64,000 nucleotides of DNA from Candidatus Schmidhempelia bombi str. Bimp (lineage in GTDB: Bacteria > Pseudomonadota > Gammaproteobacteria > Enterobacterales > Orbaceae): contig NZ_AWGA01000024.1 in assembly GCF_000471645.3 (NCBI RefSeq), positions 24,001-88,000 on the forward strand. The letters are read 5' to 3'. The position numbers and the translations under genes were made by a program. Shown in pieces: positions 23,509 through 52,780 of the stretch (the first letter of the stretch is position 1; each line of letters starts with the position of its first letter). The notes under the pieces are model-generated. The model did not search any database and was not told the origin of the DNA. It saw only the letters and a program-made list of their open reading frames with translations.

Positions 23509-24897
<1,389 letters not shown>

Positions 24898-46658: not shown

Positions 46659-47122
46659 TTAGGGTTAATGTGTTTTTTAGCACGGTCCATTTTGATTTAA
46701 TCAATTCATATACACCCAAAATTTAAGATAAATTAATTTATAATTAATGATCAATTTTTACTGAACCTTTAGCTTTGAATGTTTTTCCTTCAGTTGTTGT
46801 AAATTTATGCTTGTTCGTCTTTTATCTATGGACATATTTTCTATTTAAGGTATTCTTTCGTTCGTAAAGCGAGGGTGGTGTCCTTGATTATAAAAAGTTT
46901 TTGTCTGTAATCTCTACTAGTACAAAAGCGTTATAATAAATCAGTTATATAGATAACTCTATACCGATTATTAGGTGGGTGATTAACGATAAGATAACTG
47001 ACTCGCGATTACTTCAATTTTGTATAACCAACAAAATTTGGGTGTTTGATATAAATTAACTATTTACTATCAAACATTATGTTCAACACTGTGTTTCACC
47101 CGAGAGAGTGGGAGTTGTGCGG
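46659..47122. other. 464-base intergenic region upstream of potF
   Basis: No gene. It should contain the potF promoter. AT-rich with no clear hairpin; a short GC-richer stretch (46865-46890) has no recognised meaning. Confidence 0.45.
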
Positions 47123-48256
47123 ATGTTTATTCAACGTAAAAAATGGTTTTCTAAAAAGCCGTTACTAGCGGTTCTTTCAATTGTTTTTGGTACAACATTA
47201 TCAGTATCAATGCCTGTTATGGCGAAAGAGGATGTAGTTAAAGTATATAACTGGGCCGGCCAAATTGGCTCCTCAACTATATCTGATTTCGAAAAAGCCA
47301 CCCATATTAATGTCATTTATGATGTGTTTGATTCTAATGAAGTATTAGAAAGTAAACTAATGGCAGGACATTCTGGTTTTGATGTTGTATCGCCGTCAGA
47401 TAGTTTTTTAGCTCGTCAGATTTTATCCGGTATCTATCTTCCATTAGATAAAAGTAAATTAACCAATTGGAACAATCTTGATCCGAATTTAATGAAATTA
47501 ATGTCTACCCATGATCCGGATAATAAATATGCTATTCCTTATGTTTGGATGACGACAGGGATTGGCTACAATGTTGATATGATTAAAGCCCGTTTAGGAG
47601 AGGATGCGCCTGTTGATAGCTGGGATTTAGTCTTTAAACCTGAAAATTTAGCCAAACTACAAGATTGTGGGGTTGCGTTCCTTGATGCGCCTTCAGAGGT
47701 GTTTGCTACTGCGTTAAATTATTTAGGACTTGATCCAAATAGTACCAAGGCTAGTGATTATTCGGGTCCGGCTTATGACTTGCTAAATAAATTGAGACCG
47801 CATATTCGCTATTTCCATTCTTCTCAATATATTAACGATATTGCTAATGGTGATATTTGCGTGGTGCTTGGCTGGTCTGGTGATATATTACAAGCGCGCG
47901 ATCGTGCCAATGAAGCGAAAAATGGCGTCAAAGTTCGCTATTATATTCCAAAAGAGGGCGCATTAGTGTTCTTTGATACGTTTGCTATCCCAAAAGATGC
48001 AGAAGATCCAGAAGCAGCGCATGCGTTTTTAAATTTTATTTTACGTCCTGAAATAGCCGCACAAGTGACGAATGATGTTAATTTTGCTAGTGCCAATAAA
48101 GCTGCCGATGCTTTTATACGTCAAGATGTTCGTAGTGATCCGGCTGTTTATCCATTACCTGAAACAATGGAAAAATTATTCACCCTAAAAGTACAGGATC
48201 CTAAGATAGAGCGTGTGATTACCCGTACCTGGACTAAAATTAGAACGGGTAAATAA
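47123..48256 (+). CDS. potF: Periplasmic putrescine-binding protein PotF (variant ligand site)
   Basis: Receptor of the PotFGHI putrescine importer. ATG 47123 has GGGAG eight bases upstream and gives 377 residues with a signal peptide (basic RKKWFSKK, then LLAVLSIVFGTTLSVSMPVMA). It follows E. coli PotF closely: VIYDVFDSNEVLESKLMAG, HSSQYINDIANGDICVVLGW, FTLKVQDPKIERV. In the ligand region Trp and Asp of GWSGD, FFDTF and the DAPSEVF Glu are kept. The N-terminal loop, YNWSDYI in E. coli, reads YNWAGQI, and the Tyr of VFYANANK is Phe (VNFASANK). Ligand preference may therefore differ. Confidence 0.93.
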   Translation: MFIQRKKWFSKKPLLAVLSIVFGTTLSVSMPVMAKEDVVKVYNWAGQIGSSTISDFEKATHINVIYDVFDSNEVLESKLMAGHSGFDVVSPSDSFLARQILSGIYLPLDKSKLTNWNNLDPNLMKLMSTHDPDNKYAIPYVWMTTGIGYNVDMIKARLGEDAPVDSWDLVFKPENLAKLQDCGVAFLDAPSEVFATALNYLGLDPNSTKASDYSGPAYDLLNKLRPHIRYFHSSQYINDIANGDICVVLGWSGDILQARDRANEAKNGVKVRYYIPKEGALVFFDTFAIPKDAEDPEAAHAFLNFILRPEIAAQVTNDVNFASANKAADAFIRQDVRSDPAVYPLPETMEKLFTLKVQDPKIERVITRTWTKIRTGK

Positions 48257-48335
48257 TATAAAATAAGTGTTGTAGGCAACCATATAGTGATTTATCGCGT
48301 TATATTGGTCTCCTATAACCATTAAAAAGATGAAA

Positions 48336-48370
48336 AGACGGAAGGTGATTACCTACCGTCTCGTTTTTTT
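48336..48370 (+). terminator. Intercistronic terminator between potF and potG
   Basis: Stem AGACGGAAGGT / ACCTACCGTCT (11 positions, one mismatch) with loop GATT, then TCGTTTTTTT. It lies between two genes of the same operon and may reduce transcription into potGHI relative to the binding protein. Confidence 0.8.
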
Positions 48371-48400
48371 GTGGCATGATGTTAGTAAGGAATGCTCGAA

Positions 48401-49534
48401 ATGAATGAAAATATAATTCAGACTCACCCAAATAAAAAGAAAATGATTACGCCGTTGTTAGAAATAAAGAATTTAACGAAAGTATTTGGTGATTATTATG
48501 CGGTGGATGATGTAAATCTGACCATTTATGAGGGAGAGATTTTTGCGCTATTGGGGGCTTCAGGTAGTGGTAAATCAACATTATTAAGAATGCTGGCTGG
48601 TTTTGAGCAACCGACATCAGGCCATATTGTACTAGATGGTCAAGAATTGTCCCAAGTTCCTCCTTATCAACGCCCAATTAATATGATGTTTCAGTCATAT
48701 GCACTATTTCCTCATATGACGGTCGAGGAGAATATTGCTTTTGGTTTAAAACAAGATAAATTAGATAAAGAGGAAATTAAAGCACGAGTGCATGAAATGT
48801 TGGCGTTGGTACATATGGAAGAATATGGCAGACGTAAACCACATCAACTTTCGGGAGGTCAACGTCAGCGCGTTGCTTTGGCGCGTAGTTTAGCTAAACG
48901 CCCACGTTTATTATTACTTGATGAACCAATGGGGGCATTAGACAAAAAGTTACGTGATCGTATGCAGCTTGAAGTGGTCGATATTTTAGAAAAAGTCGGG
49001 GCTACTTGTGTGATGGTGACCCATGATCAGGAAGAAGCGATGACAATGGCAGGACGTATTGCCATTATGAATAAAGGACAATTTGTTCAAATAGGGGAGC
49101 CAGAAGAAATTTATGAGCACCCAAATAGTCGTTATAGTGCTGAATTTATTGGATCTGTCAATATTTTTGATGGGATTTTGCAAGAGACACTAGAAGATGG
49201 GTTAATTATTAGTTGTCCGATGTTAAAGCATCCGATTAAGGTTGATTATGATTCGCCAGTTGTTGAAGGTGTGCCAGCGATGGTGGCTCTTCGTCCTGAG
49301 AAAATTAAAATATGTGAAGAAATTCCAGCGCAAGGTTACAACTATGCCGTTGGGGAAGTGGTTAATATTGCTTATTTAGGCGATCTTTCTATTTATCATG
49401 TCAAATTACGTAGCGGGCAAATTCTTATTGCACAGTTACAAAATGAAGATCGGTATCGAAAAGGAATGCCTACTTGGGGAGATGATATCTACCTAAGCTG
49501 GGATGTTGATAGCTGTGTTGTATTAACTGAATAA
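48401..49534 (+). CDS. potG: Putrescine ABC transporter ATP-binding protein PotG
   Basis: ATPase of the importer. ATG 48401, ten bases after TAAGG, gives 377 residues, the E. coli length; ATG 48392 lies too close to the ribosome binding site. Walker A is LLGASGSGKSTLLRMLAGF, the signature is LSGGQRQRVALARSLA, Walker B is LLLLDEPMGALDKKLRDRMQ and the H-loop is VMVTHDQEEAMTMAG. The C-terminal TOBE domain (from about residue 265) keeps VALRPEKI and VNIAYLGDLSIYHVKL. Highly conserved. Confidence 0.96.
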   Translation: MNENIIQTHPNKKKMITPLLEIKNLTKVFGDYYAVDDVNLTIYEGEIFALLGASGSGKSTLLRMLAGFEQPTSGHIVLDGQELSQVPPYQRPINMMFQSYALFPHMTVEENIAFGLKQDKLDKEEIKARVHEMLALVHMEEYGRRKPHQLSGGQRQRVALARSLAKRPRLLLLDEPMGALDKKLRDRMQLEVVDILEKVGATCVMVTHDQEEAMTMAGRIAIMNKGQFVQIGEPEEIYEHPNSRYSAEFIGSVNIFDGILQETLEDGLIISCPMLKHPIKVDYDSPVVEGVPAMVALRPEKIKICEEIPAQGYNYAVGEVVNIAYLGDLSIYHVKLRSGQILIAQLQNEDRYRKGMPTWGDDIYLSWDVDSCVVLTE

Positions 49535-49566
49535 TTTGTTCTGTTTTTGATAATAGGAGGCTATCA

Positions 49567-50739
49567 ATGCGCGCCATTGGGTCTTGTTTTTTATTAAATA
49601 CCCTTGTTTTGTTTTATGTATATCAAAAATTGATGGCACATCAACTTTTTGACGTGGTATTTATTGATTTATTTTTTAGTTTAATGATTATTAGCTACCT
49701 AATTTCATTATTAGGTTTATTGCTAACGCAATGTAAGGCATCTCGGTTTGCTTATAAATTGATGATTTTAGGCAGTATCCTATTTTTACCTGTAGGTGGA
49801 TTATTAATTTATTTTTCATACAAGAAAATAAAAAAACTGCATGACGATTCTGATTTAGTGACACTTTATGGGCGATTTTTCGTCATCGCCGTTCCTTATC
49901 TCTGGATGACATTGCTATTTTTATTGCCATTTTTAATTGTGTTTAAAATTAGTTTTGCTGAAATGATTAGGGCGATACCGCCTTATACACATTTAATTAA
50001 TTGGCAAGAGAAGATACTAAATATATCATTAAATTTTGAAAATTATTTCAACTTGTTTGATGATACACTCTATATTAGTGCTTATTTACAATCGCTCAAA
50101 ATTGCTTGTATATCAACAATACTCTGTATTTTAATCGGATATCCGCTGGCCTGGGCGATATCACAGTGTAAGCCTTCAGTACGTAATATTCTATTATTAT
50201 TAGTTATTTTACCATCATGGACATCATTTCTCATTCGTGTGTATGCTTGGATGGGTATCTTGAAAAATAATGGCTTATTAAATAATTTTCTTATTTGGCT
50301 TGGTGTGATTGATCATCCATTAGTTATGTTAAATACCAATTTAGCCGTTTATATTGGTATCGTTTACTCTTATCTTCCATTTGTAGTATTACCTATCTAT
50401 AACTCACTGATCAAAATAGATAACTCTTTGGTTGAAGCTGCTTTAGATTTGGGTTGCAAACCAATAAAAACCTTTTTCTCGGTTATCGTTCCTTTAACTC
50501 GTAGCGGTATGATCGCTGGAGGAATGTTGGTATTTATTCCTGCAGTAGGGGAATATGTAATTCCAGAATTGCTAGGTGGTTCTGATACAATTATGATTGG
50601 CCGCGTATTATGGCAAGAGTTTTTCAACAATCGGGATTGGCCAGCGGCAGCAGCGGTAGCATCGGTGATGTTATTGATATTAATCGTACCAATATTTTAT
50701 TTTAATAAATACCAAAATGATGAAATGAGAGGAAAATAA
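49567..50739 (+). CDS. potH: Putrescine ABC transporter permease PotH with extra N-terminal membrane domain
   Basis: First membrane subunit. Residues from about 100 on are a normal PotH: VPYLWMTLLFLLPFLIVFKISFAEM, RNILLLLVILPSWTSFLIRVYAWMGILKNNG, and the EAA loop VEAALDLGCKPIKTFFSVIVPL. Before this lie about 98 residues absent from E. coli PotH (390 against 317 residues overall, whose own leader is short), with hydrophobic segments at about 5-20, 30-53 and 65-86, and a charged linker KKIKKLHDDSD. A perfect AGGAGG seven bases before ATG 49567 shows that translation begins with this extension; no internal start with a ribosome binding site is seen near residue 98. Confidence 0.93.
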   Translation: MRAIGSCFLLNTLVLFYVYQKLMAHQLFDVVFIDLFFSLMIISYLISLLGLLLTQCKASRFAYKLMILGSILFLPVGGLLIYFSYKKIKKLHDDSDLVTLYGRFFVIAVPYLWMTLLFLLPFLIVFKISFAEMIRAIPPYTHLINWQEKILNISLNFENYFNLFDDTLYISAYLQSLKIACISTILCILIGYPLAWAISQCKPSVRNILLLLVILPSWTSFLIRVYAWMGILKNNGLLNNFLIWLGVIDHPLVMLNTNLAVYIGIVYSYLPFVVLPIYNSLIKIDNSLVEAALDLGCKPIKTFFSVIVPLTRSGMIAGGMLVFIPAVGEYVIPELLGGSDTIMIGRVLWQEFFNNRDWPAAAAVASVMLLILIVPIFYFNKYQNDEMRGK

Positions 50740-50741
50740 TA

Positions 50742-51803
50742 ATGAATAATGCGCTTATTATACGTTCAGCATTAAGTATATTTATTAGTACTTTGATTAT
50801 CTCATTTTTGCTAACGGTATTTATTTCATCAACTCCGATAATGGAACTACACTGCAGTTTTAACGAAAATTTAATATCAATATTCGATTTTCATTGCGAT
50901 GTTAATCTACATAAAGAAATAGTGTTAGGTATTTTACTCTTTTCTGTTATATTTACCGTGATTGTAACTATAGTATTAAAGTTAAAATGTTTAAAAGCAT
51001 TTATTTTAATGATAGCACTTTCATTTTTGTATATCCCTATGTTAATGCTTGTTATCTACTCATTTAACAGTTCAAGATTAGTCACCGTATGGGCTGGATT
51101 TTCAACTAAATGGTATTATGAATTATTAAATAATAGTGCTTTGATTAAAGCAGTATTATTAAGTCTAAGCATTGCCATAGCGTCAGCAACATGTGCAATC
51201 GTATTGGGGACATTAGCGTCATTAGCTATTGTTCGTTTTCGCCGTTTTAAAGGCTCAAATCTCTTTTCCTTTATGACAACTGCACCTTTAGTTATGCCAG
51301 ATGTCATTACTGGATTAGCCTTACTTTTACTCTTTGTTGCTATGGGACAAACATTAGGTTGGCCTAAAGATCGTGGTGCTATTACTATATGGCTTGCTCA
51401 CACCACATTTTGTGCTGCTTACGTTGCTGTTGTTATTAGCGCAAGATTACGTGAATTGGATAAATCTCTTGAAGAGGCGGCGATGGATTTAGGGGCTAAT
51501 CCATTAAAAGTTTTCTTTATTATCACTATTCCAATGATTGCCCCAGCCTTAGTATCGGGTTGGTTATTAGCATTTACGTTATCATTAGATGATTTAGTTA
51601 TTGCTAGTTTTGTGGCAGGACCAGGCGCAACGACCTTACCAATGCTTATTTTCTCTAAAGTACGCTTAGGGGTGGATCCACAGATTAATGCGTTAGCCAC
51701 CATTATTTTATTAATTGTTGGTATTATTGGCTTTATTTCTTGGTTATTGATTAGAAGAAAAGAGAGACGACAGTTACAATATATGCGTCGAGTTAAGCAA
51801 TAA
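50742..51803 (+). CDS. potI: Putrescine ABC transporter permease PotI with extra N-terminal membrane hairpin
   Basis: Second membrane subunit. From residue 85 it matches PotI: SFLYIPMLMLVIYSFNSSRLVTVWAGFS, TAPLVMPDVITGLALLLLF, EAA loop LEEAAMDLGANPLKVFFIITIPM and LSLDDLVIASFVAGPGATTLP. Between the usual MNN..RS start and the first core helix, about 72 residues are inserted, with helices at about 10-29 and 58-78. A loop of about 28 residues between them contains two Cys (near 38 and 52) that would face the periplasm and could pair. Total 353 residues against 281 in E. coli. It begins two bases after potH. Confidence 0.93.
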   Translation: MNNALIIRSALSIFISTLIISFLLTVFISSTPIMELHCSFNENLISIFDFHCDVNLHKEIVLGILLFSVIFTVIVTIVLKLKCLKAFILMIALSFLYIPMLMLVIYSFNSSRLVTVWAGFSTKWYYELLNNSALIKAVLLSLSIAIASATCAIVLGTLASLAIVRFRRFKGSNLFSFMTTAPLVMPDVITGLALLLLFVAMGQTLGWPKDRGAITIWLAHTTFCAAYVAVVISARLRELDKSLEEAAMDLGANPLKVFFIITIPMIAPALVSGWLLAFTLSLDDLVIASFVAGPGATTLPMLIFSKVRLGVDPQINALATIILLIVGIIGFISWLLIRRKERRQLQYMRRVKQ

Positions 51804-51822
51804 ATCAACAATCGATTTTTAT

Positions 51823-51853
51823 AAAAAACCGAATTAGACATTCGGTTTTTTTA
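51823..51853 (+). terminator. Terminator of the pot operon
   Basis: Stem AAAAAACCGAAT / ATTCGGTTTTTT with a five-base loop and a T run, 20 bases after potI. Confidence 0.92.
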
Positions 51854-52715
51854 TTATTTCTTATAGTAAATTTGTAGCTTATGTAATGAATATTTCACTT
51901 AGCATTGGCACACAATGTGGGTCAGGATTACTTAATAGTTTCTTTTTGGCGCTTTGCTGCTAGTTTATTGTTATTTTTTACTTTTTCTCAATTAATTGGT
52001 TAACTATTTTAAGTACGTTTAACCAAAATTTTTTACAACAGAGTTGATAAGCAAATACGCGTTATAATGGGTATTACGTGAACTATTTATTAGAGCAAAG
52101 GTTTCTTGTGTTAATTGTGCTAGTTCATTGTATTGATAAAGAAAGTGTTAGTGAATTAATGAGTTAGCTAGAGGATTATAACTGTAGACAACGATCTGAT
52201 TTAGGATTGACTAATTTCATTCGGTCGCTACATAAGTCAATAACATAACTTTTCTTAATCTTTATCGTCTTATATAGATTGATTTGCATAGACCATTATT
52301 CTTAATATTTTGTATTATTACTTGTTAATGAGCAGATAAAGTTACAATGTCGATAGGTTAAGGTTTATTCCACTATTTTTTAAGTAGTAGTTAATTTATA
52401 CCATCAGAAAAGCTGATTACTATACCAATATAAAATACTTTCAATGAAAACAAGTCTGATTTTCAACTGTTAGAAGTTATTCTATGCTATTGATATATGA
52501 AATTTTGTTGCTGTACGTGGTTTTTATCAAATTACGTTTTAATTCACAATAAACGGAATAACACATTTTTATCATTTTATATTTTATTTGATTTTTTGGG
52601 TATTAGTGTTGGAAAGAAAATGTTAACGCTATATTAGCATCGATTATACTAACAATTGTAGCGTATGATGGGTAACCTATTAAATATTATATGATTAGTT
52701 TGATTAAATAAATAT
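51854..52715. other. 860-base AT-rich noncoding stretch between convergent potI and the PuuP-like gene
   Basis: No gene can be supported. A 20-codon frame from GTG 52109 (reads LIVLVHCIDKESVSELMS) looks faintly protein-like but is too short to judge; it might be a decayed gene. Confidence 0.45.
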
Positions 52716-52756
52716 AATAAAAAACTACCACAAATCCATTATTGAACTTGTGGTAG
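52716..52756 (-). terminator. Terminator of the PuuP-like gene
   Basis: Minus-strand hairpin CTACCACAA / TTGTGGTAG followed by TTTTTTATT, 25 bases past the stop codon. Confidence 0.85.
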
Positions 52757-52780
52757 ATAAAGGGTAAGCTTAATGCACTA

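Follow-up and report, generated by a model that had tools for sequence, protein, structure and literature searches.

Orbaceae putrescine importers with extra membrane segments on both permease subunits, one probably derived from a small free-standing membrane protein

The window analysed here, 64,000 nucleotides of Candidatus Schmidhempelia bombi str. Bimp (positions 24,001 to 88,000 of contig NZ_AWGA01000024.1), contains an operon that, judged from its gene content, codes for an otherwise ordinary PotFGHI putrescine importer in which both permease subunits have been remodelled. The segment added at the start of PotH appears by homology to be a fused copy of a ~100-residue membrane protein, whose family is seen only in Orbaceae as far as searched, and PotI carries a two-helix hairpin close to its N-terminus. 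The kind of transporter is already known; what is new is a PotFGHI variant with an apparently captured membrane module and a separate PotI hairpin. Many Orbaceae are bee-gut bacteria, and a literature search found no paper on polyamine transport in Gilliamella or on extensions of PotH or PotI.

RESULTS

The potFGHI operon

The operon is organized as four genes on the forward strand (47108-51803) in the order potF-potG-potH-potI, which is also kept in relatives. The first gene, potF (47108..48256), codes for the putrescine-binding protein (SBP_bac_8 Pfam match, 8e-28) and potG (48392..49534) for the ATPase subunit, with Pfam ABC_tran and TOBE_2 matches; these are followed by potH (49567-50739; 390 aa) and potI (50742-51803; 353 aa). 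The PotH core permease (49861..50739) scores 526.4 bits with NF007963, above the curated cut-off of 489. The PotI core (50985..51803) matches NF007889 over profile positions 12-279 of 281 with 457.8 bits, which is below the curated cut-off of 476, so that the name PotI rests on operon position and best match; NF007889 is the best model by far, the PotC model reaching 248.6 bits. In 21 of 22 Orbaceae genomes the one match of the PotB model NF007044 is the PotH locus, and nothing exceeds the cut-off of this model; PotFGHI thus appears to be the sole PotB/PotH-type permease there, PotB-type permeases being what this search covered. Beyond potI there is nearly 1 kb (51804-52780) without an open reading frame of at least 80 aa, apart from an antisense one that overlaps the left end; this gap, possibly a decayed gene, separates potI from a convergent amino-acid permease gene.

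The PotH extension

The NCBIfam PotH model aligns only to residues 99-388, and ~98 residues (49567..49860) with three hydrophobic segments and a DDSDLV tail therefore precede the core, just as the original prediction had proposed from the reading frame. That prediction also took a perfect AGGAGG before the extended start (49555..49560, 6 nt 5' of the ATG) as a sign of translation, and comparison with relatives bears this out, since an AGGA/GAGG-type site stands at the same place in nearly all of the relatives inspected and the upstream frame is under purifying selection. When close Gilliamella relatives are compared in pairs, the PotH extension has a dN/dS of ~0.12-0.15 and the PotI hairpin one of 0.17, against 0.03-0.04 in the PotH and PotI cores. 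The two extensions change at three to four times the rate of the cores, and the selection acting on both argues that both are translated.

Alignment of PotH and PotI from related genomes reveals the extensions as a shared Orbaceae trait, not a peculiarity of this genome. Thirty-six Orbaceae genomes were sampled (including Gilliamella, Frischella, and Orbaceae bacterium ESL0727), 35 of which have potFGHI, the locus being absent from G007. The PotH extension is present at 33 of these 35 loci, the exceptions being G002 and G008, which code for a short PotH; the extension is therefore not essential for the transporter. Conservation across the family argues that the two additions are not chance, and on these comparisons the remodelling is taken to be real and selectively maintained. 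The possibility that they are ordinary features of PotH and PotI in many unrelated gammaproteobacteria was checked in a class-wide sample of 369 genomes, and neither extension has a credible match outside Orbaceae; the matches inspected there are unrelated proteins or unconvincing and are treated as chance. Matches of the PotH module to named Pfam and NCBIfam families (PLDc_N, DUF4064, Claudin_2, and others) are all below threshold and were likewise judged to be chance. The G008 operon (L033, 2411-6781) is unusually divergent, with F, H, and I at 59-64% identity compared to roughly 75-88% in relatives, and its PotH, in addition to having no N-terminal extension, has extra residues in the first periplasmic loop.

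The PotI hairpin

In PotI, the core match begins at residue 85, and residues 10-81 (50769..50984) are extra: 72 residues forming a pair of hydrophobic helices and a loop that holds Cys38 and Cys52, again as first described. Ahead of them is a leader, MNNALIIRS (50742..50768), which in alignments is the counterpart of MNNLPVxxRS in Gilliamella, itself similar to MNQLPYVRS of an unextended outgroup. An outgroup-like leader is thus kept before the hairpin, with core helix 1 after it, which points to an insertion and not a longer start. The hairpin is found at all 35 Orbaceae loci, including those of G002 and G008 with unextended PotH, and this weakens the earlier idea that the two subunits carry matching extensions.

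The observation that the two extra parts do not resemble each other holds, since profile comparison detects no sequence relation between them and does not place the hairpin in the family from which the PotH extension appears to come; a common origin was rejected on this negative comparison. No homologue of the hairpin outside PotI was found in 60 relatives or in the 369 genomes across the class, and a profile search found no free-standing member. The cysteine pair is specific to the window genome, the aligned relatives lacking it; it is not conserved because the loop is 14-19 residues shorter in these relatives. In the window this longer loop (50853-50897) could form a disulfide.

A free-standing relative of the PotH extension between proB and proA

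A profile built from the PotH extension only matches free-standing proteins of ~90-130 residues in six Orbaceae genomes (G002, G018, G010, G021, G009, and G019), with E values that include 1.8e-9, the lowest, and 3.4e-9, and hhalign aligns the extensions with these proteins over 87 columns (98.2%, E 3.8e-14). The alignment of fused and free-standing modules spans the start codon through the tail; in one G002 copy the tail reads KSLQDDDLV, against KKLHDDSDLV in PotH. On the basis of this full-length match, the PotH extension belongs to a three-segment family of Orbaceae. Each of the six genomes has the free-standing gene between proB and proA (L088:3995-4801, L089:4171-5044, L090:4064-4390, L091:3960-4256, L092:4208-4504, and L093:4074-4364), with two copies each in G002 and G018; the remaining matches, in G023 and G012, are interrupted by stop codons. 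A small two-helix protein (~140 aa) adjoins the free-standing gene in most of the six genomes; it was considered as a source of the PotI hairpin and rejected, as comparison shows nothing. No known Pfam family covers either the ~100-residue protein or this two-helix neighbour, and no plasmid match was found for the free-standing protein.

The original prediction that PotH had captured a small membrane protein is therefore right in kind but not in its donor, YbjO, which is replaced by the proB-proA family. Neither a free-standing copy nor a proB-scale match (best E, 2e-4) was found in the window genome, a draft assembly of 131 contigs, whereas several relatives have proB-proA. This suggests that proline synthesis was lost in the window genome together with the free-standing membrane protein.

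History of the two gains

The short PotH leader of G002, KHGRKFVIAVPYLW, resembles that of the outgroup, RHGRKLVIAVPYCW, and with this ancestral-type PotH and its two free-standing copies G002 looks, from its sequences, like the state before fusion. In both UvrB and Pot trees it is placed beside the genus of the window, inside the extended group, with moderate support, but a topology in which it branches outside every extended lineage survives the AU test (p 0.16). The simplest reading is a single fusion after the G002 split and later loss of the extension from the operon of G008, which is evolving fast; alternatively, G002 may have undergone a reversal or a transfer. As no homologue of the PotI hairpin was found and its distribution is different, the PotH and PotI parts were probably gained separately. 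In one step, a two-helix hairpin would have been inserted into PotI after its first nine residues; in another, a proB-proA-type module would have been joined in frame to the N-terminal end of PotH, taking the place of the earlier cytoplasmic leader.

Predicted structure and topology

The AF2 model of the PotH extension (low-depth, mean pLDDT 72) has three helices, 2-24, 31-56, and 60-101, arranged as a generic three-helix bundle with the third segment as one long helix, and it has no significant match in the PDB; the full-length PotH model is poor (pLDDT 42). Loop 1 is acidic, loop 2 averages 3.0 K/R and 0.04 D/E, and the tail averages 4.5 K/R, and the K/R richness of loop 2 and the C-terminal tail favours a cytoplasmic side for both. 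This charge pattern is best met by two spans and a re-entrant third segment containing Pro-Gly, with the N-terminus predicted to be cytoplasmic; the alternative is three full spans with the N-terminus outside.

Where the extensions would lie can be considered with PotABCD, in which PotB and PotC, each with six helices, are related by pseudo-twofold symmetry, and TM3-TM5 form most of the spermidine cavity (PMC11414716). By analogy, with the substrate path formed by TM3-TM5, extensions ahead of TM1 should sit at the edge, and the pseudo-twofold symmetry should put those of PotH and PotI on opposite sides.

DISCUSSION

Remodelling in two separate steps, with peripheral accessory helices that support or tune the importer, has about an even chance of being the correct account, given the sequence comparisons and the analogy with known importers. 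The extensions would be at the periphery of the heterodimer, off the substrate path and attached to core helix 1 in PotH and PotI alike, where they may act as built-in accessory helices that aid insertion, assembly, or stability or adjust the activity of the permease, in the manner of MalF, whose N-terminus carries two segments more than that of MalG (PMC3654945). A bolder proposal, which we think unlikely, is that an Orbaceae membrane regulator, normally found with proline-synthesis genes, has been hard-wired to the permease, where it would gate or tune the import of polyamines, the PotI hairpin adding a second point of control.

The additions might instead be passengers, a fused module and a hairpin that are tolerated, and are hard to lose cleanly or now guide membrane insertion, with transport unaffected. 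The faster evolution of the extensions, the lack of the PotH extension in G002 and G008, and the precedent of extra N-terminal helices in this importer class in MalF (PMC3654945) are all consistent with this, but the extensions are under clear purifying selection and are retained across several genera, with the motifs MRxI, Y-K-x-S-[KR], G-S, P-x-G, I-Y, and DLM conserved; we regard the passenger account as a real possibility, though somewhat less probable than not. That extra N-terminal helices are present on both subunits in most Orbaceae could also mean that they form a co-adapted pair, packing together or creating a place where a partner or PotF could dock. This is quite doubtful, since PotI has its hairpin where PotH is unextended, the two have no sequence relation, and PotB/PotC pseudo-twofold symmetry (PMC11414716) should put the N-termini on opposite sides.

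The origin of the PotH extension in YbjO (PF10767) has next to no likelihood. In its favour, ybjO adjoins potI in E. coli, a ybjO-type gene lies 3' of potI at one of the loci compared (L035), ybjO is missing from the window locus, as originally noted, and both YbjO and the extension are small membrane proteins. Yet comparison of the extensions with the YbjO profile gives an hhalign probability of 0.2%, PF10767 has no match in any Orbaceae genome sampled and among a 198-genome sample of the order is found in only one family (f19), and the proB-proA proteins are the better donor (hhalign E 3.8e-14). It is also very improbable that the extension is an annotation artefact, in which the Met/Val codon within the SDLM/V motif is the true start of PotH and the frame 5' of it is non-coding. 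A start codon at this position, just ahead of the core, is conserved, being ATG in relatives and GTG in the window, but in every relative inspected it has no ribosome-binding site, and the conserved site at the upstream start, the dN/dS of 0.12-0.15 in the upstream frame, and homology to free-standing proteins that includes the start codon all speak for the longer protein.

Across the family Orbaceae, an importer permease has thus probably absorbed a small membrane protein that is still encoded as a separate gene. A relative resembling the pre-fusion state makes possible a direct test of the role of extra N-terminal helices in type I ABC importers, and the free-standing partner, linked to proline-synthesis genes, represents an uncharacterised membrane protein family that is restricted to Orbaceae as far as searched.

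Enterobacteriaceae PotFGHI shares the gene order, the PotH and PotI cores, the binding protein, and the ATPase with the Orbaceae systems, which differ in adding the PotH N-terminal module and the PotI hairpin and in having no ybjO; YbjO (PF10767), the small membrane protein linked to potI in Enterobacteriaceae, has no detectable homology to the free-standing or fused module. The PotABCD spermidine importer (8y5f) has permeases PotB and PotC that are homologous to PotH and PotI (E about 1e-56), although both have six helices and carry no extensions. A further likeness, in architecture only, is to MalF of MalFGK2, a permease of a type I importer that likewise has, compared with its partner, additional hydrophobic helices at the N-terminus, outside its six-helix core, whereas in Orbaceae the extras are on both subunits, three hydrophobic segments in PotH and two in PotI, with those of PotH apparently drawn from a free-standing family.
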